A DNA stretch of 38,622 bases, taken from a virus. The DNA is taken from positions 1-38,622 of IMG/VR virus record IMGVR_UViG_3300009177_000071. The stretch is one strand, 5' to 3'. Positions 6,282-12,775 of this stretch are shown here, one piece after another. Positions within the stretch are counted from its first letter, which is position 1. Every line of letters begins with the position of its first letter. The notes beneath the pieces were generated by a model. It had not been told where the DNA came from, made no database searches, and saw only the letters and a program-made list of their open reading frames with translations. The translations under genes and the position numbers were made by a program.

Positions 6282-6998
6282 CTACTGCTCGTCGAGCAGC
6301 CTTGCTGCGAGGGCCTGCATCTGCTCCCAGCCGAGCGCCTGCACGCCCGCCTCCTCGGCCGGTAGCTCCAGCTCGACCGTGGCCTGCTGCAGAGGGAAAG
6401 TCGCGTCGAGCACGGTCACGGCGGCGCGCTGCTGCGCGAGGCTGCTGAGGGCCTCGTCGTCGAGCGGCGCCAGCAAGGCTTCGGCCAGCCGCTCGGCCCT
6501 CGCCATGGCTTGAATCCTGGCATGTTCCCTCGGGTTCCCGACCCTGTTCGGGCCTATGCCAAGTGTCTGCCTCTGGATTCTGAGCCTTGTCTTGGCGGCG
6601 TGGCCTTTGGCGCTCATGCGCCGCAGAGCTTCGGGGTCTGTGGCGCCTCCTCCTCCAGCGTGGACGACGCAGATGCCGTACAAGCGAGTGGCCGGAGCAC
6701 GGCAGCGTCCGCGCTGCGTGACGATCCTGCAGTAGCCGTTGGGCTCGGCGAGTGTCGAGCCTTCGGGGACGCGGTGGCAGTGAGGGAGGCTGAGCCCGAG
6801 GACGTCGACGTGTGGCTGTTGTTGCAGCCAGGCGAGTGTGCCTTCGCGGGGCGGCTCTGTTGCGTCCTGGTGACTACCTACGTTGGCGCTATCCCGCATG
6901 GTTGCGTGAGCACTCTGAATGGCGAGGCCTGTTTCGGCCTCCTCGGGCTGCTCGACCTTGGGCTCGATCTCCTGACCCATCTGGGGGATATCTGTCAC
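6282..6998 (-). CDS. Cys/His-motif protein (238 aa), possibly DNA-binding
   Basis: Residues 88-113 hold GYCRIVTQRGRCRAPATRL, then YGICVVHAGG. This is a C-x8-C-x10-C-x3-H arrangement seen in many phage proteins with an HGG motif and probably binds zinc. A helical, arginine-rich region follows (MSAKGHAAKTRLRIQRQTLG...HARIQAMARAERLAEALLAP). Such proteins are sometimes encoded near terminases and may act as packaging adaptors or DNA-binding factors, but this gene lies 5.4 kb from terL and no small subunit was otherwise seen. The start is GTG after AAGGAGG, with a rather long spacing of about 12 bases. Confidence 0.65.
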   Translation of the reverse strand: MTDIPQMGQEIEPKVEQPEEAETGLAIQSAHATMRDSANVGSHQDATEPPREGTLAWLQQQPHVDVLGLSLPHCHRVPEGSTLAEPNGYCRIVTQRGRCRAPATRLYGICVVHAGGGGATDPEALRRMSAKGHAAKTRLRIQRQTLGIGPNRVGNPREHARIQAMARAERLAEALLAPLDDEALSSLAQQRAAVTVLDATFPLQQATVELELPAEEAGVQALGWEQMQALAARLLDEQ

Positions 6999-7194
6999 AG
7001 ACTGTTGCGCCTCCTTGCTGCTGGCTGCTACCTTGCTCTCGATCGGCCGAACGGGCCGGGGTCAGTCGCAACGAGGCCGGGCTAGCGCCGAGGCCGTCTG
7101 AGAGGGAGTATCGCCCTCCGGCTCCACTGGAGAAGCTCACCAGGTCGCACGTCGGGCCAGGGGGACTCGGTTGCAGAGGCCGGGTACGAGGGCC

Positions 7195-7211
7195 GGTGGA
7201 GGATCCTCCTC
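7195..7211 (+). repeat. Left copy of 17-bp inverted repeat bracketing the early array
   Basis: The sequence is GGTGGAGGATCCTCCTC, centred on the palindrome GGAGGATCCTCC. Its exact reverse complement lies at 10936-10952, just after the last gene of the array. Confidence 0.6.
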
Positions 7212-7390
7212 CAAGAGGGCCGCGGTGCTTCACCCCGGCGCTCCGAGCTTGACCCTGATGACTCACGACAGTGAGGACGCTTCGGCGTCGACCTGGGCTC
7301 GGATGCGTTGCCGCGGTCACAGGTCGAAAGGGTGGGGCGAGGTGACCGGATGCGGTCACCGAGCTGTCGCTTCCGCCTCCCTCATTGGCG

Positions 7391-7434
7391 GGGCCGCTCA
7401 CGCGGCCCTGTCGGTCAACCAACCAGAGGAGCAC
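7391..7434 (+). promoter_or_regulatory. Array element 1: hairpin + CGGTCAACC + RBS
   Basis: GGGCCGC-TCAC-GCGGCCC (7391-7408), CGGTCAACC (7412-7420), then AGAGGAG before the ATG at 7438. Confidence 0.7.
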
Positions 7435-7437
7435 ATC

Positions 7438-7626
7438 ATGCTGAAGTTCACGGTCTACAACGCGAGCACGGGCGAGATCATCGCCACCGACCGCACCGAG
7501 ACTCAGGCCGAGAACCTGGCCGGGGCGCTTCGCGTCTACGGTCAGTTCAACGTCACGGTCGCTGCGTCCACCGACGTCGAGGGCGACAACGTCCACACGT
7601 CGCGGGTGCGGCTGGACGAGATTTGA
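7438..7626 (+). CDS. Small hypothetical protein (62 aa), first of the early array
   Basis: The product is strand-rich (MLKFTVYNASTGEIIATDRT) with a central helix (ETQAENLAGALRVYG) and a second strand region. I do not recognise it. It opens a series of small genes that share one leader design and probably one transcript. Such arrays in phages usually code for early host-takeover proteins; no direct evidence exists here. Confidence 0.75.
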   Translation: MLKFTVYNASTGEIIATDRTETQAENLAGALRVYGQFNVTVAASTDVEGDNVHTSRVRLDEI

Positions 7627-7629
7627 GGG

Positions 7630-7669
7630 GGCGCCGGACGGCGCCTCGGTCAACCAACGAACGGAGGAA
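7630..7669 (+). promoter_or_regulatory. Array element 2: hairpin + CGGTCAACC + RBS
   Basis: GGCGCC-GGAC-GGCGCC (7630-7645), CGGTCAACC (7647-7655), ACGGAGGAA, then the ATG at 7675. Confidence 0.75.
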
Positions 7670-7674
7670 TCACC

Positions 7675-7962
7675 ATGGCTGCTACTACCTGCACCGTCCG
7701 CACCGCCGTCGGCGGCACCTGCGGCAAGCCCGCCGTCTACAGCTTCACCGGCTCGCGCGGCGAGGCGTTCGGCGAGTGCGCCGAGCACTTCCACGGCGCG
7801 ATCAGCGCCACGTCGACCGGCCTCGTCAAGGTCGGCGACACCGTCGCCGTCCACCGGCACGGCAAGCGCTACGACGGCCGCGTCGTCCGCGTCACCAAGG
7901 CCGGGAACGTGTTCGCCGAGGTCACCTACGACAACGGCGTCACCCGCACCGTCCGGGTCTGA
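7675..7962 (+). CDS. Zinc-ribbon-like plus KOW/SH3-like small protein (95 aa)
   Basis: Residues 6-40 contain CTVRTAVGGTCGKPA and CAEHFHG, a C-x8-C...C-x2-H arrangement that would bind zinc. Residues 51-95 are strand-rich (KVGDTVAVHRHGKRYDGRVV...), suggesting a small beta-barrel. A nucleic-acid or polymerase-binding role is a reasonable guess but unproven. It starts with ATG after the array leader; the stop is followed immediately by the next hairpin. Confidence 0.75.
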   Translation: MAATTCTVRTAVGGTCGKPAVYSFTGSRGEAFGECAEHFHGAISATSTGLVKVGDTVAVHRHGKRYDGRVVRVTKAGNVFAEVTYDNGVTRTVRV

Positions 7963-7965
7963 GGG

Positions 7966-8002
7966 GGAGCGCATCGCGCTCCTCGGTCAACCACTAGGAG
8001 GA
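7966..8002 (+). promoter_or_regulatory. Array element 3: hairpin + CGGTCAACC + RBS
   Basis: GGAGCGC-ATC-GCGCTCC (7966-7982), CGGTCAACC (7984-7992), TAGGAGGAA, then the ATG at 8006. Confidence 0.75.
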
Positions 8003-8005
8003 ACC

Positions 8006-8254
8006 ATGAACATCGAACTGACGCCTGACTCGCTCGACCTGTTCCTCGGCCTCGCCGAGGACGCCTCGAACTGGAGCGGCACGCCGCTCGTCACGGTCTC
8101 GGCCGGGCAGCGCGGCAACCTCACGCACCTGAAGAAGCTCGGCCTGATCGAGACCTTCGTCGATGAGGGCTGCACGTTCGCGATCTTCACCGACGCGGGC
8201 AAGGCGCTCGCCGTCGAGCACGGCATCGACCCGCTCAACCTGAGCTTCGTCTAG
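8006..8254 (+). CDS. Winged-helix-like small protein (82 aa)
   Basis: The pattern LDLFLGLAEDASNW, then a strand TPLVTVS, helix QRGNLTHLKKLGLIETFV and wing DEGCTFAIFTDAGKALA resembles a short winged helix of the kind found in MarR-like regulators. It could modulate early transcription. The assignment rests on pattern only. It is a single-gene block between two array hairpins. Confidence 0.65.
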   Translation: MNIELTPDSLDLFLGLAEDASNWSGTPLVTVSAGQRGNLTHLKKLGLIETFVDEGCTFAIFTDAGKALAVEHGIDPLNLSFV

Positions 8255-8258
8255 GAGG

Positions 8259-8298
8259 GCACCCGCGAGGGTGCTCGGTCAACCAACCCAAGGAGGAA
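8259..8298 (+). promoter_or_regulatory. Array element 4: hairpin + CGGTCAACC + RBS
   Basis: GCACCC-GCGA-GGGTGC (8259-8274, a GNRA tetraloop), CGGTCAACC (8276-8284), AAGGAGGAA, then the ATG at 8303. Confidence 0.75.
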
Positions 8299-8302
8299 CA
8301 CC

Positions 8303-8563
8303 ATGCAGGATCGCGAGATCGCATACGAACAGAACGTCACCGGCCTGGAGATCGCCTGGCGCAGTCGCATCGACAGCTTCGCCGCGAGCGCCGTCAACGG
8401 GCTCACGAACGACCACATCGACGACCTCGACGGGCTCCAGCTGAACGCGACCGAGGTCGTCGCCGCCCGCCTGCTCGACTCCGAGCAGTGGGCGAACGTC
8501 AAGGCCACCGACATCTCGGACATCGCGTACGAGGCCGTCGGCCGCGTCATCGACGCGAGGTAA
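8303..8563 (+). CDS. Helical hypothetical protein (86 aa)
   Basis: The product is predicted to be almost fully helical and acidic (LEIAWRSRIDSFAASAVNGL, TEVVAARLLDSEQWANVKAT, DISDIAYEAVGRVID). No family is recognised. It forms a single-gene block of the array with strong G/C third positions. Confidence 0.7.
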   Translation: MQDREIAYEQNVTGLEIAWRSRIDSFAASAVNGLTNDHIDDLDGLQLNATEVVAARLLDSEQWANVKATDISDIAYEAVGRVIDAR

Positions 8564-8568
8564 GGAGG

Positions 8569-8603
8569 GCGCCCACGGGGCGCTCGGTCAACCACCAAGG
8601 AGG
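8569..8603 (+). promoter_or_regulatory. Array element 5: hairpin + CGGTCAACC + RBS
   Basis: GCGCCC-ACG-GGGCGC (8569-8583), CGGTCAACC (8585-8593), AAGGAGGAA, then the ATG at 8608. Confidence 0.75.
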
Positions 8604-8607
8604 AATC

Positions 8608-8949
8608 ATGAGTGATGCACGCTTCGCATTCGTTTCCGGCGCCCGGCGCCGCGAGGAAGTCGCCGCCTACCTGCCCGCCAACTTCGCCGTCCTCGGCGAG
8701 GGCGCAGAGTCGAAGCAGTACGGCTGGGACGGCACGTCCAAGCCGATCATCCGCACCACCACGTTCTACGTGATCGGCGGCTACGACGACCACGGCTGGA
8801 CGCTCGACGGGTACGTCATTCCGCGCCTCGCCAGCGGCCTGATCGGCGCCCGCGAGGTCAGCGAGCAGACGGCGCGAGAGGTCGTCGCCAGCTCGTCGAG
8901 CCCGGACGCCTACATCGGGCTCCCGGCACGGAGGGAGGAGCGCATCTAG
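8608..8949 (+). CDS. Hypothetical alpha-beta protein (113 aa)
   Basis: The protein begins MSDARFAFVSGARRREEVAA, has a strand-rich middle (PIIRTTTFYVIGGYDDHGWTLDGYVIPRL) and a helical end. I do not recognise it. The frame extends far upstream, but the ATG at 8608 is set by the array leader. Its TAG stop lies at the loop edge of the next array hairpin (8947-8949), so ribosomes terminating here would open that stem. Confidence 0.75.
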   Translation: MSDARFAFVSGARRREEVAAYLPANFAVLGEGAESKQYGWDGTSKPIIRTTTFYVIGGYDDHGWTLDGYVIPRLASGLIGAREVSEQTAREVVASSSSPDAYIGLPARREERI

Positions 8950-8977
8950 CGCTCCTCGGTCAACCAACACAAGGAGG
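8937..8977 (+). promoter_or_regulatory. Array element 6: hairpin + CGGTCAACC + RBS
   Basis: GGAGCGC-ATCTA-GCGCTCC (8937-8955) contains the previous stop codon; CGGTCAACC is at 8957-8965, then AAGGAGGAA and the ATG at 8982. Confidence 0.75.
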
Positions 8978-8981
8978 AATC

Positions 8982-9227
8982 ATGGAACGGATCAACATCG
9001 TCACGCTCAACGAGCGTGCGATCAACGTCAACCGCCGCCTGCTCGGCAGCGGTCGGAGCGTCGTCGTCGAGCAGCGCAACGGCTACGTCGCGCTCGACGA
9101 GTACAGCGTCAACAGCGAAGGCCATTTCGACGCCTGCCTGCGCACGATCACGGCCGGGAGCAAGCGCGAGATCGCCGACTTCCTGCACGCGATGATGGTC
9201 GGGATCGACCTGTCGAGGGCCAGCTGA
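8982..9227 (+). CDS. Hypothetical protein (81 aa)
   Basis: An alpha-beta protein (RINIVTLNERAINVNRRLLG, VVVEQRNGYVALDEY, TITAGSKREIADFLHAMMVG). No family is recognised. It is the first gene of a two-gene block: its TGA shares one base with the following ATG (TGATG), and no hairpin separates them, so the two are coupled. Confidence 0.7.
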   Translation: MERINIVTLNERAINVNRRLLGSGRSVVVEQRNGYVALDEYSVNSEGHFDACLRTITAGSKREIADFLHAMMVGIDLSRAS

Positions 9228-9406
9228 TGTTCGACATCGAGAACCACGGCTCGATCATGCTCATCCGGCCGCACACCGACGACGTGCAAGCGTGGCTCAT
9301 CGAGCACACCGACGGCACCTGGTTCGGCGGCGCGCTTGTCGTCGAGCCGCGCTACGTCGGCGACATCGTCGCCGCGCTCGTCGAGGAGGGGTACGCGCTC
9401 CAGTAG
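9227..9406 (+). CDS. Small protein of a common phage family of unknown role (59 aa)
   Basis: The sequence FDIENHGSIMLIRPHTDDVQ, then WLIEHTDGTWFGGALVVEPRYV, fits a short protein seen in many phages and prophages with the pattern ENHGSI...L..P....A..W........W.G....VE.RY. Its function is unknown. It starts by ATG overlapping the previous TGA. Its stop falls in the next array hairpin. Confidence 0.7.
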   Translation: MFDIENHGSIMLIRPHTDDVQAWLIEHTDGTWFGGALVVEPRYVGDIVAALVEEGYALQ

Positions 9407-9437
9407 CGCGCACCTCGGTCAACCAAAGGGAGGTGAT
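9394..9437 (+). promoter_or_regulatory. Array element 7: hairpin + CGGTCAACC + RBS
   Basis: CGCGCT-CCAGT-AGCGCG (9394-9410) overlaps the previous stop; CGGTCAACC is at 9416-9424, then GGGAGG and a TTG start at 9442. Confidence 0.7.
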
Positions 9438-9441
9438 CCCG

Positions 9442-9666
9442 TTGAAGAGCGGGAACATTTACTGCACCTGTGGGCACGCCATCGTGTCCCACAACCCGGC
9501 AGGCGAGACGTTCGCCTGCTGCATCCGCGGCTGCGATTGCCGCGAGTTTCGCTCGGTCGAGAAGGCCGAGGCCCTGTCCGCGATGAACGAGATCGTGGAC
9601 GACTTCTTCGCTTTCCAGGCGGCGGCTTGCACCACGCAGGCTGACTGCCAGTGCGGCCGTCATTGA
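9442..9666 (+). CDS. Cysteine-rich zinc-binding-like small protein (74 aa)
   Basis: Residues 8-32 contain CTCGHAIVSH and CCIRGCDC, a cluster of six cysteines and two histidines likely to bind one or two zinc ions; CQCGRH ends the chain. TTG is chosen as start because GGGAGG lies at 9428-9433; the in-frame GTG at 9433 overlaps that site. Its stop codon is within the next array hairpin. The role is unknown. Confidence 0.7.
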   Translation: MKSGNIYCTCGHAIVSHNPAGETFACCIRGCDCREFRSVEKAEALSAMNEIVDDFFAFQAAACTTQADCQCGRH

Positions 9667-9695
9667 CGGCCGCACCTCGGTCAACCACAAGGAGG
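9651..9695 (+). promoter_or_regulatory. Array element 8: hairpin + CGGTCAACC + RBS
   Basis: GTGCGGCCGTC-ATT-GACGGCCGCAC (9651-9675) is the longest stem, 11 bp, and spans the previous stop. CGGTCAACC is at 9678-9686, then AAGGAGGAA and the ATG at 9700. Confidence 0.8.
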
Positions 9696-9699
9696 AAAC

Positions 9700-9900
9700 A
9701 TGCTGTACATCGCCACCCGGTCAGTCCTGACCGGGCATCTGTCCGAGATCATCTCGGTCGGGGACGACATCGCCGCGGCCCGCAAGCTGGCCCAGGAGCG
9801 CGCCGATCGGATGCGCGCGAACAGCGTCTGGCTGACGACGGGCAACCCGACCAGCAAGTACTCGGCGGTGCTCGAAACGTTCCCGGCCACGCTCGTCTGA
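9700..9900 (+). CDS. Hypothetical protein (66 aa)
   Basis: An alpha-beta pattern: MLYIATRSVLTGHLSEIISV, then a helix DIAAARKLAQERADRM and a final strand. I do not recognise it. First gene of a two-gene block; TGATG links it to the next. Confidence 0.7.
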   Translation: MLYIATRSVLTGHLSEIISVGDDIAAARKLAQERADRMRANSVWLTTGNPTSKYSAVLETFPATLV

Positions 9901-10052
9901 TGGCCTGGCAGCTCGTCGCCGGGCGCAAGCGCTGCGAGCACTGCAGCCACTTCACCGAGCGGTCGTGGTGCTGGTTCGAGCGACCCGGGACGTGGACGCG
10001 CTGCCTGTGCGAGCCATGCGTCGAGTACCTGCTGCAAGAGGGGGAGCGCTAG
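9900..10052 (+). CDS. Small zinc-ribbon-like protein (50 aa)
   Basis: CEHCSHF and CLCEPC give the C-x2-C...C-x-C-x2-C spacing of a small zinc ribbon, separated by an aromatic stretch (ERSWCWFERPGTWTR). It starts by ATG overlapping the previous stop (TGATG). It is the third likely zinc-binding protein in the array. The function is unknown. Confidence 0.7.
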   Translation: MAWQLVAGRKRCEHCSHFTERSWCWFERPGTWTRCLCEPCVEYLLQEGER

Positions 10053-10084
10053 CGCGCTCTCTCGGTCACCTAACCAAGGAGGGA
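10044..10084 (+). promoter_or_regulatory. Array element 9: hairpin + variant motif + RBS
   Basis: GAGCGC-TAGC-GCGCTC (10044-10059), then CGGTCACCTAACC (10063-10075 region), a variant carrying extra bases within the motif, then AAGGAGGGAA and the ATG at 10087. Confidence 0.65.
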
Positions 10085-10086
10085 AC

Positions 10087-10359
10087 ATGAACACCGCAGA
10101 GAAGCTGCGGCGCATCCGGCGCGAGCTGGACGAGTGCGCCGAGCAGCTCGACCGCCTCGCGACCGCCGTCGAGGAGCCCGTCGAGGCGCCGCTGGTAGGC
10201 CTCGTCGAGGCCTCGGCGCTGACCGGGATCGAGCGGGGGCTGCTGCGCTCGATGCGCTCGCGCAACAAGCTGCCCGTCCCGATCGCCGAGTTGGCCTCCG
10301 GGCCGGTCTGGCGGCGCGTCGACATCGAGCGCTGGAACAAGGCGAGGAAGAAGTCATGA
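10087..10359 (+). CDS. Coiled coil plus excisionase/AlpA-like HTH (90 aa)
   Basis: Residues 1-32 form a short coiled coil (EKLRRIRRELDECAEQLDRL). Residues 36-86 match the MerR/AlpA/excisionase-type helix-turn-helix: LVGLVEASALTGIERGLLRSM, then LPVPIAELASGPVWRRVDIERW. It probably binds DNA as a transcription or recombination factor. It is linked by ATGA to the following membrane protein gene. It differs from the other excisionase-like protein at 17331. Confidence 0.75.
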   Translation: MNTAEKLRRIRRELDECAEQLDRLATAVEEPVEAPLVGLVEASALTGIERGLLRSMRSRNKLPVPIAELASGPVWRRVDIERWNKARKKS

Positions 10360-10547
10360 GCAACATCGTGATCATCGCGCTGTTCGCCGTCGCGATCGGC
10401 GTCCCCGCCGCGATCGTGCTCACCCGCCTCGACGACTCGAACTGGTGGGAGCGACTGCCCGAGTGGCTCGTCTTCCCGCTGTTCCTCGTCGGGTCGTGGC
10501 TCTGGATCGGCGCCGTCGCGGGCGTCGGCTACCTGCTGCTCCGTTAG
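10356..10547 (+). CDS. Two-pass small membrane protein (63 aa)
   Basis: Two hydrophobic helices are clear: residues 4-23 (IVIIALFAVAIGVPAAIVLT) and about 38-62 (LVFPLFLVGSWLWIGAVAGVGYLLL), joined by a polar DDSNWWERLPEW loop. ATGA overlap with the HTH gene suggests coupled expression. A role in superinfection exclusion or membrane modification is possible but not shown. Confidence 0.7.
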   Translation: MSNIVIIALFAVAIGVPAAIVLTRLDDSNWWERLPEWLVFPLFLVGSWLWIGAVAGVGYLLLR

Positions 10548-10551
10548 AGGG

Positions 10552-10588
10552 GGACGAGCTAGTCTCGTCCTCGGTCAACCAAGGAGGA
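10552..10588 (+). promoter_or_regulatory. Array element 10: hairpin + CGGTCAACC + RBS
   Basis: GGACGAG-CTAGT-CTCGTCC (10552-10570), CGGTCAACC (10572-10580), AAGGAGGAA, then the ATG at 10591. Confidence 0.75.
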
Positions 10589-10590
10589 AC

Positions 10591-10785
10591 ATGAGCACCA
10601 CCGTAGGAACGATCACGATCCTGGCCGGGCTGTTCGGCCTGGTCGGGATCCAGACGTTCTGGGTCGTGCGCGCGCTCGACTCGATCGACCGTGTGCTCGA
10701 TCGCATCGACACGCGCCTCGACCGGATCGAGGGCGTCCTGATCGCCTTCGGCGAGCGCATCACGCGCCTGGAAGAGCACTCATGA
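10591..10785 (+). CDS. Single-pass membrane protein with coiled-coil tail (64 aa)
   Basis: Residues 5-27 are a transmembrane helix (VGTITILAGLFGLVGIQTFW). The rest is a heptad-like coiled coil (SIDRVLDRIDTRLDRIEGVL...). The repeated IDR units give a regular 3-4 hydrophobic pattern, suggesting oligomerisation at the membrane. It is coupled to the next gene by ATGA. Confidence 0.7.
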   Translation: MSTTVGTITILAGLFGLVGIQTFWVVRALDSIDRVLDRIDTRLDRIEGVLIAFGERITRLEEHS

Positions 10786-10937
10786 ACGCCGCCGACACGA
10801 TCACCCTGTACGAGCAGATGCTGCTACGCATCGTTCGGATGGTCGAGGCAGCCAACGATGACGCCGACGCCGACCCCTGGCTCGTTCTGGAAGACATCCA
10901 GATCGCCTGCCAGGACGCGCTCGCGCACACGCACTGA
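10782..10937 (+). CDS. Small acidic helical protein (51 aa), last of the array
   Basis: The product (MNAADTITLYEQMLLRIVRM..., ending WLVLEDIQIACQDALAHTH) is helical and acidic. ATG overlaps the previous stop (ATGA). The stop touches the 17-bp inverted repeat at 10936-10952 and the hairpin after it. The family is unknown. Confidence 0.65.
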   Translation: MNAADTITLYEQMLLRIVRMVEAANDDADADPWLVLEDIQIACQDALAHTH

Positions 10938-10952
10938 GGAGGATCCTCCACC
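10936..10952 (-). repeat. Right copy of the 17-bp inverted repeat
   Basis: It is the exact reverse complement of 7195-7211 and overlaps the stop of the last array gene. Confidence 0.6.
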
Positions 10953-10965
10953 ATCTCCGGTGGAG
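10946..10965. terminator. Hairpin between convergent genes
   Basis: CTCCACC-ATCTCC-GGTGGAG is a seven-bp stem between the rightward array and the leftward SLOG gene. It lacks a T-tract, so it may stop transcription poorly or serve RNA stability. Confidence 0.45.
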
Positions 10966-11331
10966 TCACTCGTTCTCGACCTGAATGACCTCGACCCGAA
11001 TGCCGCGCTTGCGCGCCTCACCGATCGTGTGCTTCGTCCCGGGCGAGTCACCGTTCCAGAACGCGAGCACCAGCTCCGGCCGGGTATCGAGCATGCGCAG
11101 GTTGCGCAGGATCCCCGCCTGTCTGCCGTGCCGGTTCCAGTTCGCCGGGATGATCACGCGCTCCAGGCCGAGGTCGCGGGCGACGTCGTCGGCGAGCTGA
11201 TCGGCGCCGAGCGCGCCGCCGGTCACGATCATCGCGTCGGCGGGCAGGCTCTTCAACCGCCGCGCGATCGCTTCCTTGTCGCGCCAGCTGCGCGAGCCGC
11301 AGACGAGCACCCTCATCGGAAAATCGGACAC
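10966..11331 (-). CDS. YspA/DUF2493-like SLOG-family protein (121 aa)
   Basis: The chain follows the SLOG Rossmann-like pattern: strand RVLVCGSRSW at residues 7-16, VTGGALGADQLADDVARDLG at about 36-56, IIPANWNRHGRQAGILRN, and VLAFWNGDSPGTKHTIGEA near the end. GGA-GAD and GT form the presumed nucleotide-binding loops. Relatives are common in phages and are thought to bind nucleotide-derived ligands; no activity can be assigned here. The start is taken as GTG at 11331; an internal ATG at 11316 directly before the first strand is an alternative, since neither has a good Shine-Dalgarno. Confidence 0.8.
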   Translation of the reverse strand: MSDFPMRVLVCGSRSWRDKEAIARRLKSLPADAMIVTGGALGADQLADDVARDLGLERVIIPANWNRHGRQAGILRNLRMLDTRPELVLAFWNGDSPGTKHTIGEARKRGIRVEVIQVENE

Positions 11332-11391: not shown

Positions 11392-12084
11392 TCAACGCAG
11401 CCGTTTGCGTACCGTGCCACGCGGGATGCCCGTGCGCCGGGCGATCTCCCCGGCCGTAAGCCCGATCGCCGCCAGCTCCAGGATCGCGTCGCGGCGCTCG
11501 TCGGCCGCCGTCCGCTCGACCAGCCAGGGCGGTACGCGCACCGTCCGCACGCGCAGCGCGATCATCAGCACGCCGAGATCGAGGTCGACGCGGGCGGGCT
11601 CGTCGAGCGCGCGCGGTTCGTGGTCGACGAGCACGGTGCGCACCAGCCGGTAACGGCGAGGGTGCCGGAGCGACAGCCAGTCGAGCGCGCCCCGCATCTG
11701 CCGGTAGCTGCCGTGGCGGTCGTAGGTGGCCTTCACGCGCTCCCAGACGAACATCTCCGGTTCGGGTGAGGTCTGGGCCCGACCGGCCTTCGGGCGCGTC
11801 ACAGGCAGGCTCACGGCCTCGTCCAGCGGCAGCTCCAGGTACCTGTCCCACGGCCGCTCGCCGGGCTCGCGGCGGCGCCAGCCTTCACCGTCGCAGCCGA
11901 GGCAGAGTGTCCAGCCGCCGCGCGTGCGCACCTCGCCGCGGGAGCGACAGGTTTCGCACGGCACGTAGCGGCTCGCGGCCGGGCCGGAGTCTGGTTCGAT
12001 CGGGTCGACCGGCGTCGGCACCCAGTCGTTCATCGAGCCGAGCAGCAGCCTCACCCGCTCGACGTGCTCTGCGAGGGCGGACAT
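11392..12084 (-). CDS. Zinc-motif plus C-terminal HTH protein (230 aa)
   Basis: Near residues 42-70, CETCRSRGEVRTRGG then CLGCDGEGW gives C-x2-C...C-x2-C-x-G-x-G, like a DnaJ-type zinc knuckle. The last 45 residues (DERRDAILELAAIGLTAGEI, then ARRTGIPRGTVRKRL) form a typical HTH of the resolvase/sigma-region-4 kind. The middle contains helices with many arginines. The protein is probably a DNA-binding regulator. The ATG at 12084 is chosen because GAGGAGG stands four to five bases upstream, although the frame is open further. It lies 60 bases upstream of the SLOG gene and is probably cotranscribed with it. Confidence 0.7.
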   Translation of the reverse strand: MSALAEHVERVRLLLGSMNDWVPTPVDPIEPDSGPAASRYVPCETCRSRGEVRTRGGWTLCLGCDGEGWRRREPGERPWDRYLELPLDEAVSLPVTRPKAGRAQTSPEPEMFVWERVKATYDRHGSYRQMRGALDWLSLRHPRRYRLVRTVLVDHEPRALDEPARVDLDLGVLMIALRVRTVRVPPWLVERTAADERRDAILELAAIGLTAGEIARRTGIPRGTVRKRLR

Positions 12085-12232
12085 CGCCTCCTCGCAGCCA
12101 GCCTCTCCCCCCGGCCGCAGTCTAGAGACGAATTTCTCGCTCTGTGCAGGTAACAGCCGCCTGCCTGGTGTCAATCCGGTGAACGGAGCGGGTAGTACTG
12201 CAGGCTCAATCGGGGGGAGGCAGGCTCTGCGG

Positions 12233-12290: not shown

Positions 12291-12440
12291 GTGGCTGTCA
12301 CCAATGTCACAATCAAGGTTCAGAGAATCCTTACATGTGATGTATGGGTGATGTATTTCGGGCTCTTAGTGATGTATTTGGCCCTCTTAGTGATGTATGT
12401 GCCCATTGTCACTAGGGGCACAAGGGATGTGGCGTCTTGA
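12291..12440 (+). CDS. Membrane micropeptide with tandem heptapeptide repeats (49 aa)
   Basis: AGGAGG at 12279-12284 is six bases before the GTG, and the TGA stop shares three bases with the TTG start of the Xre regulator (TTGA), so both ends are well supported. The peptide begins MAVTNVTIKVQRILTCD. It then carries three related seven-residue units, VMYFGLL, VMYLALL and VMYVPIV (residues 20-40), forming one transmembrane helix, and ends TRGTRDVAS. The units are encoded by 21-bp repeats. Codon use differs from the region: two TTA codons and many A/T third positions. Coupling suggests it works with, or antagonises, the regulator. A signalling peptide or membrane toxin are options; no family is recognised. 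Confidence 0.6.
   Translation: MAVTNVTIKVQRILTCDVWVMYFGLLVMYLALLVMYVPIVTRGTRDVAS
12337..12404 (+). repeat. Tandem GTGATGTAT repeats, helically phased
   Basis: GTGATGTAT occurs at 12337, 12348, 12369 and 12390, with spacings of 11, 21 and 21 bases. The last two lie in 21-bp units (12363-12383 and 12384-12404) that share their first 15 bases. Two of the copies encode the heptapeptides of the micropeptide. The spacing also puts all copies on one face of the helix, so they may double as regulator or replication-protein sites. Confidence 0.6.
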
Positions 12441-12775
12441 CATCCGACGGCGGCTCCCTAGAGTCCCTGCAACGAGTTAGAAAACGGGCAGGTAGCCGTC
12501 GACTCGGGGGAAGACTCGGACAGGCGCGGCGCAGGCGCGGTTACACCCAGGCTGAAGCCGCAGCCCTCTTACGGGAGGCCTCACAGGGAGAACTTCGCAC
12601 GACCCAACAGACCATCTCGCGCTGGGAACGCAACGTGTTCAAGCCGATGACCAACGAGCTGGAGTGGATCTGCATCGCCTACGGGATCCGGTTCGAGTGG
12701 CTCGTCGACAAGCGGGGCGCGATGGATCGCAAGGGGCTCGACATCTCCCAGTTCCACCATCCCGACTTGAAGTAG
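12437..12775 (+). CDS. Xre/Cro-C1-type HTH regulator (112 aa)
   Basis: Residues 25-85 match the Cro/C1 helix-turn-helix: GRLGQARRRRGYTQAEAAALL, then TTQQTISRWERN and a third helix region with ELEWICIAYGIRFEWLVD. The TTG start is supported by AAGGGA nine bases upstream and by TTGA overlap with the micropeptide stop. No other start codon is in frame before the fold. The same bases also read TTGACA, and TAGAGT follows after 16 bases, so a promoter inside the 5' end of the gene is possible. It opens the recombination/replication operon and probably regulates it. Confidence 0.8.
   Translation: MTSDGGSLESLQRVRKRAGSRRLGGRLGQARRRRGYTQAEAAALLREASQGELRTTQQTISRWERNVFKPMTNELEWICIAYGIRFEWLVDKRGAMDRKGLDISQFHHPDLK

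Follow-up and report, generated by a model that had tools for sequence, protein, structure and literature searches.

The window analysed here, the whole 38,622 nt of IMG/VR virus record IMGVR_UViG_3300009177_000071, carries an array of small early genes whose starts are repeatedly preceded by the same arrangement of hairpin, short motif and ribosome-binding site. Why should so many genes share such a beginning, and what might read it? Judged from the sequences of this and related uncultured phages, there is an even chance that the element is a standard start module for operon-wide, RNA-level control of early translation, with a conserved pseudoknotted leader perhaps reading it. The tag within the module varies with lineage in step with that leader, which suggests a previously unrecognised RNA control system.

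Organisation of the element

In this group of phages the module lies before nearly every independently started small early gene, and runs from a hairpin at the stop codon of the preceding gene, through a short tag, to a ribosome-binding site (Table 1). Between 7.4 and 10.6 kb, all ten non-coupled starts have GGTCAACC and a Shine–Dalgarno (SD) sequence with a hairpin immediately upstream, whilst the element is present at none of the four coupled starts (9227, 9900, 10356 and 10782), which overlap the preceding stop, just as the earlier note had described. Its count of ten copies is likewise confirmed: nine are exact CGGTCAACC (at 7412, 7647, 7984, 8276, 8585, 8957, 9416, 9678 and 10572) and the tenth, at 10064, is the variant GGTCACCTAACC. 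Base composition predicts about 0.24 exact copies of CGGTCAACC per strand in the whole window; with one mismatch allowed, 32 occur, against 11.7 ± 3.5 in shuffles.

The three-part layout proposed earlier stands in its order but not in its dimensions, as the array stems span 8–11 bp rather than 6–11 bp, and the gap before GGTC, originally given as one to five bases, is usually 0 (3 nt at 9678). The first C of CGGTCAACC is thus part of the stem in most copies. One array stem contains a mismatch, and several contain G–T pairs. An SD is present as claimed, but its sequence is variable, with GGAGG and GAGGAG amongst its forms, and is not always AAGGAGGAA. The tag, GGTCAACC or TTCCCAAC, is separate from the SD, and the element sits just before the starts of non-structural genes in a single orientation. 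The same architecture is found in 14 further uncultured relatives, and its motif is clade-specific: GGTC in class 1, which includes the window, and TTCC in a sister clade, class 2.

Table 1. Features of the start module, its outlying copies and the leader RNA in the window
Feature	Coordinates	Strand	Support
First array hairpin, 11 bp, TCAC loop	7387..7412	+	
Motif GGTCAACC and SD (GAGGAG) before gene 7438	7413..7431	+	
Hairpin, 8 bp, 1 nt past stop of gene 7438-7626	7628..7647	+	
Motif GGTCAACC and SD before gene 7675	7648..7667	+	
Hairpin, 9 bp, 1 nt past stop of gene 7675-7962	7964..7984	+	
Motif GGTCAACC and SD before gene 8006	7985..8001	+	
Hairpin, 8 bp, GNRA loop GCGA, directly past stop of gene 8006-8254	8257..8276	+	
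Motif and SD before gene 8303; extra gene cassette here in relative G002	8277..8296	+	
Hairpin, 8 bp, directly past stop of gene 8303-8563	8567..8585	+	
Motif and SD before gene 8608	8586..8603	+	
Hairpin, 9 bp, loop at stop TAG of gene 8608-8949	8935..8957	+	
Motif and SD before gene 8982	8958..8977	+	
Hairpin, 11 bp, one mismatch, loop at stop TAG of gene 9227-9406	9388..9416	+	
Motif and SD before TTG-initiated gene 9442	9417..9433	+	
Hairpin, 11 bp, loop at stop TGA of gene 9442-9666	9651..9675	+	
Motif and SD before gene 9700	9679..9695	+	
Hairpin, 10 bp, loop containing stop TAG of gene 9900-10052	10040..10063	+	
GGTCACCTAACC (variant motif) and SD ahead of gene 10087; extra cassette here in G002	10064..10082	+	
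Hairpin, 9 bp, directly past stop of gene 10356-10547	10550..10572	+	
Motif and SD before gene 10591	10573..10587	+	
Start-less copy: hairpin, GGTCAACC and GGAGG, divergent intergenic region, no start codon	3237..3277	+	
Leader of gene 3370: dispersed GGTCAACT and SD, following -10-like TACACT	3337..3363	+	
Leader of gene 1036: dispersed AGGTCAACC and SD, following -10-like TAAAAT	1015..1034	+	
CU-rich leader segment TCCTCCTCC, complementary to SD (AGGAGGA)	7204..7212	+	12/12 leaders, alignment A4
Leader RNA core: helices P0, P1, P2, P3, PX; CTGATGAC and GAAA	7206..7333	+	Covarying helices, 12 genomes
TTGACC box of leader RNA (ends in GACC); complement of array motif GGTC(AA)	7249..7254	+	

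The hairpin as an RNA structure

By eye, it had been proposed that the stems covary, that the motif varies less than the stem and that several hairpins contain a stop codon, and all three points are borne out across paralogous and related elements. Loop-proximal positions are paired at 99 % in 96 hairpins, compared with 51 % when arms are dealt amongst elements, and a fixed-end pairing test returns 19.5 vs 9.6 ± 0.6. In 85 of the 96, the preceding stop codon is found at the loop or immediately before the stem. GNRA tetraloops cap 11 of 56 element hairpins, but only 21 of 648 other strong hairpins in the same genomes (p about 1e-5); for UNCG tetraloops the figures are 11 of 56 and 17 of 648 (p about 2e-6). 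As pairing is kept and both tetraloops are enriched, the structure, on this comparative evidence, acts at the RNA level. Predicted accessibility is higher for array SDs than for other SDs (0.51 vs 0.28, p 3e-11); this falls only from 0.51 to 0.47 when the hairpin is removed in silico, and is reduced by the class 2 linker. Pure insulation of the SD by the hairpin was rejected given this weak predicted effect.

The earlier note had set independent terminators, each followed by its own promoter, against its proposal. These were rejected on a scan that found zero terminator-like sites over 6900–11100 and a single, weak promoter-like site in the array, which is inside a gene, with none between genes. 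A related, rather unlikely reading is control of transcription elongation, in which polymerase would weakly pause or terminate at the hairpins, and the leader would be a put-like antitermination RNA allowing read-through of the array. The UCUU or UUUU that follows class 2 stems is consistent with this, although it amounts to a partial U-tract only, whilst class 1 stems run into GGTCAACC with no U-tract, so that the GC stem and U-tract of an intrinsic terminator are not found together.

A clade-specific tag and a pseudoknotted leader

The tag is GGTC in 57 of 61 class 1 elements and TTCC in 34 of 35 class 2 elements, and the two are never swapped between classes; three elements of G012 harbour GGCTC in place of GGTC. 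Gene families present in both classes bear the tag of their own genome, and thus the motif follows the genome.

A leader containing helices P0–P3 and a crossing helix, PX, is present in all 12 array genomes whose sequence includes the operon start. The corresponding covariance model, R1, matches the leader core of the window at 94 bits, gives one strong match in each of the 12 leader genomes, and finds no leader in G014 and G016, both relatives without the array. In addition to a CU-rich segment 45–51 nt upstream of the core (12/12 leaders), these RNAs possess a box that is GACC in 9/9 class 1 leaders, complementary to GGTC, and GGAA in 3/3 class 2 leaders, complementary to TTCC. Between the classes, the tag core differs as GGU/UUC and the box as ACC/GAA, i.e. 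by three matching complementary changes, although this switch occurs once on the tree and hence counts as one event. No third combination of tag and box was found, as a DNA pattern for the leader core matched no further records in viral contigs.

That the leader controls the early operon, in cis or in trans, through pairing of its GACC or GGAA box with the GGUC or UUCC tag is a tentative possibility. Box and tag would then coevolve, and cassettes would have to bear the tag of their own genome to be controlled. Calculated duplex energies display no clean preference for cognate leader–tag pairs: the class 2 box scores −6.6 with class 1 elements vs −4.6 with its own, and the box is not the best-pairing window of the leader.

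The put RNAs consist of two simple stem–loops, and we know of no complementary downstream repeat set for them. As a structured nascent antitermination RNA in an early phage operon, HK022 put (PMC9378689) lends some weight to elongation control, since a structured leader likewise heads the operon here. The present leader is, however, pseudoknotted and unlike any Rfam family: the window, L132, L157 and L159 gave no match above family gathering thresholds, and the leader region none up to E=5. A hammerhead ribozyme (CUGAUGA...GAAA in the leader) was also rejected, because P2, P3 and PX lie in between and the helices come in the wrong order.

The stoperators of cluster A mycobacteriophages occur as many asymmetric, transcription-oriented copies, with a consensus that varies by clade and tracks a reader (PMC6550527, PMC9283540). 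The motif here is similarly asymmetric, in one orientation and clade-specific, and the window encodes an integrase and, by eye from the translation, an XRE-like protein (12437-12775). Nevertheless, it is decidedly unlikely that GGTCAACC is a stoperator-like repressor site, oriented with transcription and coevolving with a protein in each clade. Stoperators are repressor sites spread genome-wide, structural genes included, and have no link to an RNA hairpin or SD (PMC6550527, PMC9283540). The present motif, by contrast, is tied to a hairpin with RNA covariation and RNA tetraloops, and outside the early array its copies occur only in a few leaders, with two exact minus-strand matches that both fall within one long coding frame.

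The position of the element would also suit a nuclease cutting at or near the tag, since the hairpin closes one gene at its 3′ end and the tag, unpaired, opens the next at its 5′ end. Each cassette would then become its own mRNA, ending in a hairpin and beginning at a defined 5′ end; the copy at 3337 would lie near a 5′ end if its -10-like TACACT is used. Such processing is improbable, as the motif shifts with the leader box between clades, a change not required of a host nuclease site.

Gene cassettes and relatives

Whole gene cassettes, cut inside the element, distinguish a pair of near-identical genomes. The two extra cassettes of G002 join within the shared element, in line with the earlier suggestion that cassette boundaries fall there. 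Moreover, 66 of the 105 array proteins occur as singletons within the genome set, and shared families occur in differing order. All of this could be accommodated if the element served chiefly for shuffling small cassettes and had no regulatory role. This has little probability, since exchange driven by homology requires neither a sequence-variable paired hairpin, tetraloops, stop-codon placement nor a matching leader, and cassette gain may be a by-product. Integron attC sites carry RYYYAAC, which is unlike GGTCAAC; with only a phage tyrosine integrase, and no integron integrase, seen, this identity was rejected.

The neighbouring HTH protein has a predicted fold of pLDDT 67 with no significant PDB match. 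With regard to the host, a terminase search of 396 Actinomycetota genomes returned nothing, the leader model gave only weak matches near threshold, and a DNA pattern found scattered single matches in genome contigs. The nearest isolate terminases share <35 % identity in the best matches.

Proposed mechanism

In the preferred reading, RNA-level control of the whole operon, each copy would be an RNA module in a long early mRNA. Its hairpin, starting at or centred on the stop codon of the preceding gene, would keep upstream termination apart from downstream initiation and display a short tag, left single-stranded, whose core is GGUC in the window and UUCC in the sister clade; a strong SD and the start would follow. 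Genes coupled by overlap would have no need of it. The reader of the tag would be one factor common to the operon, such that all independently initiated cassettes could be switched together, at translation or in mRNA fate. The favoured candidate is the leader RNA of the same operon, through its tag-complementary box and its SD-complementary CU segment; alternatively, a phage protein may recognise both leader and tag. As every boundary would be the same module, recombination within it could add or remove genes. We infer leader–tag base pairing, an effect on translation and coordination across the operon.

Comparison with known systems

Start-associated repeats have, to our knowledge, been found in several actinobacteriophage groups since 2011, none with a known function. 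Those of cluster K (SAS and ESAS) are located at translation starts of non-structural genes, in one orientation, with an inverted repeat upstream in about half and no assigned function (PMC3203893, PMC11373665). The 13 bp SAS is GGGATAGGAGCCC or a near variant and includes the SD core, whilst the ESAS arms are conserved in sequence, display departures that do not support RNA pairing, and contain SigA-like promoters (PMC3203893, PMC11373665). The earlier note had drawn this parallel with reservations, and both hold: position before non-structural genes and single orientation are shared, but the tag here is separate from the SD, the 13 bp GGGATAGGAGCCC is not present, and the stems change sequence freely whilst remaining paired, are placed at the stop codon and contain no promoter. 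The element is a new form of actinobacteriophage start-associated sequence.

Short repeats in short intergenic gaps, mostly before starts, are described for Microbacterium phage clusters EC, EF, EG and EI, and the EG repeat, GATCAACCNNGGTTGATC, resembles the present tag; it is a conserved palindrome, however, and the sections of that report drawn upon here mention no variable hairpin, stop-codon placement or partner leader for it (PMC7302621). In the leader-encoded CI RNA immunity of satellite phage P4, a leader RNA has a short box complementary to repeated sites in its own operon and acts by transcription termination in the leader, whereas the sites complementary to the present leader are found before each gene along the operon.

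A known kind of repeat is thus joined to a covarying stop-codon hairpin, a clade tag that follows the genome and a leader with a complementary box, making its function testable with small reporter constructs. It would offer a concrete account of how phages swap small early genes without loss of control, and the leader provides a new structured RNA for annotating uncultured phages.

Copies outside the array

Further copies had been noted before genes 1036 (AGGTCAACC) and 3370 (CGGTCAACT). Both are present, but these dispersed copies (at 1016 and 3337) are without a stop-codon hairpin, and the segment containing the former is absent from G002 and G007. In G015, G017 and G018, the start-less copy at 3237-3277, which the earlier note did not list, has counterparts bearing the class 2 motif. 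Positions 3310-3329 harbour an inverted repeat, AGTGTA-N8-TACACT, of operator- or promoter-like appearance.

A repeated module at gene starts

In the early array of the window, which is a 38.6-kb IMG/VR virus record, each of the ten starts lying clear of the preceding gene has the same series before it, first a hairpin, then GGTCAACC, and after a short linker the Shine–Dalgarno (SD) sequence, as the earlier note had claimed for ten gene blocks. Its further claim that starts within blocks go without this element also holds, as all four overlap the preceding stop and none has it. The hairpins adjoin the motif, with the preceding stop codon either 1–3 nt 5′ of the stem or at the loop. Exact CGGTCAACC occurs in nine copies on the + strand within 3.2 kb (expectation ~0.24 per strand over the whole window), and is unexplained by an SD plus start codon.

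The first relatives were obtained with a DNA pattern and the remainder through the HTH gene that, with a second gene, flanks the array in this phage group. Terminase identity to the window is 73–98 % within the group, whereas the best isolate matches are <35 %, and hence the collections searched hold no cultured member. The element was found in 14 other records (eight diverged class 1 with tag core GGTC, two near-identical to the window and four class 2 with TTCC), and not in G014 and G016, two relatives having the flanking genes.

Features of the array, its relatives and its surroundings (oriented coordinates for G015, G017 and G018)
Feature	Record	Position	Remarks
Element, diverged class 1	G001, G004, G005, G009-G013		
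Element, near-identical to window	G002, G007		
Element, class 2	G015, G017, G018, G019		
Segment with gene 1036	window	878-1428	own tag copy; promoter-like -10-like box; absent from G002, G007
Start-less hairpin, tag and SD	window	3237-3277	divergent region
Start-less hairpin, tag and SD	G015; G017; G018	about 7232; about 28154; about 19949	
Inverted repeat AGTGTA-N8-TACACT	window	3310-3329	over possible -10 boxes, both directions; operator-like
Non-coding stretch	window	5277-5520	highly conserved against L132 (compared sequence); palindrome near ATGAAACCGCGACTTCATG
Flanking gene	window	6285-6998	
Leader	window	7180-7412	between flanking gene and first array gene
Early array	window	7438-10937	rightward; small genes
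Second array gene	window	7675-7959	weak Pfam Phage_ProQ_C_like match (E 0.0018, below cut-off); possible RNA-binding protein
Starts without element	window	9227, 9900, 10356, 10782	
Flanking HTH gene	window	11395-12174 (-)	conserved; CxxC...CxxC zinc-ribbon-like part, C-terminal HTH
Alternating second element type	G012 (L176)	43977, 44566, 45253	GGCTCAACAGGGGCC, a second small hairpin, replaces GGTCACACA

The hairpin as RNA

Among 96 distinct hairpins with a strong stem, the six loop-proximal positions are paired in 99 %, compared with 51 ± 2 % when 3′ arms are dealt among elements. As these hairpins had been chosen by score, pairing was tested again with each 3′ end anchored to the motif (19.5 observed versus 9.6 ± 0.6), and the covariation suspected earlier is thus upheld. 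GNRA and UNCG tetraloops close 22 of 56 element hairpins, but only 38 of 648 other strong hairpins in the same genomes; neither a DNA cruciform nor a protein-bound palindrome would need such loops. Kept pairing and tetraloop enrichment therefore indicate that the hairpin acts as RNA, although they do not tell its role. Sites for a DNA regulator are unlikely, and RNA processing is improbable. The flanking HTH protein, whose fold is not recognised, is a candidate regulator.

A tag matched to the genome

On the 3′ side of the stem, class 1 elements read CTC-GGT-CAACCAAC. Those of class 2, a single clade with full support in the tree, have GTC-TTCC-CAACCAA there. GGTC is present in 57/61 class 1 elements and TTCC in 34/35 of class 2, the other class's core never being seen. 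Gene families 1, 2, 9 and 13 occur in both classes, and every member bears its own genome's tag type (a GGCTC variant in the family 13 member of G012). The tag is thus matched to the genome. This favours one shared reader, whether RNA or protein, over a tag merely moving with its gene.

Across most of the two sequences, aligned blocks of the window and G002 share 91–99 % identity, yet the G002 array has two extra genes, each break lying inside a repeated CTCGGTCAACC...GGAGG stretch. Of the 105 array proteins, 66 lack a relative in the set. The module thus serves as a boundary at which genes are gained and lost, which may be either function or by-product; pure recombination as the whole explanation is as improbable as RNA processing.

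Proposed control of translation and the leader RNA

Scanning the array revealed no terminator-like site and no promoter between genes, the sole promoter-like match (9231) being weak and inside a gene, which speaks against the independent terminators and separate promoters that the earlier note had set as its counter-case. Given this, the SDs predicted to be more accessible than those elsewhere, and the exemption of coupled genes, the preferred reading is that translation of array genes would be controlled at the RNA level through the element. Simple SD insulation by the hairpin alone was rejected, its predicted effect on SD access being small, and for this reason a reader that would recognize the tag is postulated.

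A leader of ~130 nt heads the operon in 12/12 array genomes whose operon start is covered. Its helices P0, P1, P2, P3 and PX all covary in these 12 genomes, and as PX crosses P0 and P1 the fold is a pseudoknot. A covariance model built from this leader gives one match per array genome (86–119 bits) and none >20 bits outside those leaders in 845 kb searched; no Rfam family matches. Transcription antitermination by this leader is a rather doubtful alternative, if less so than DNA regulator sites.

Directly 5′ of an invariant CTGAYGAC lies TTGACC (nine class 1 genomes) or GTGGAA (three class 2). Leader GACC is complementary to tag GGTC, and GGAA to TTCC; three positions therefore change in step between leader and tag. 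CU-rich, SD-complementary TCCTYCTCC stands 45–51 nt upstream in 12/12 leaders. For RNA-level control, this box is the main lead to a possible mechanism, but a clearly limited one. The switch counts as a single event, a match of four base pairs is short, and both U of TTGACC may be taken up by P1 pairing; in class 2, moreover, the cognate pair is not the one favoured by calculated duplex energies.

Relation to known repeats and further copies

The element is the same in kind as actinobacteriophage start-associated repeats, whose function is given as unknown or unclear in the relevant sections of PMC3203893, PMC11373665 and PMC7302621. It differs from cluster K start-associated and extended start-associated sequences in the tests that define them (sequence, promoter content, no RNA pairing), and thus falls outside that group. 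Those sections of the cited descriptions mention neither a covarying stop-codon stem nor a clade-matched tag or complementary leader.

The start-less copies, in the window and in G015, G017 and G018 alike, lie in the divergent region and, read on the leftward strand, would be antisense to array elements (CCTCC...GGTTGACC). The palindrome of the conserved non-coding stretch is seen again in L049, another compared sequence, as ATGAAGTCGCGATTTCATG.
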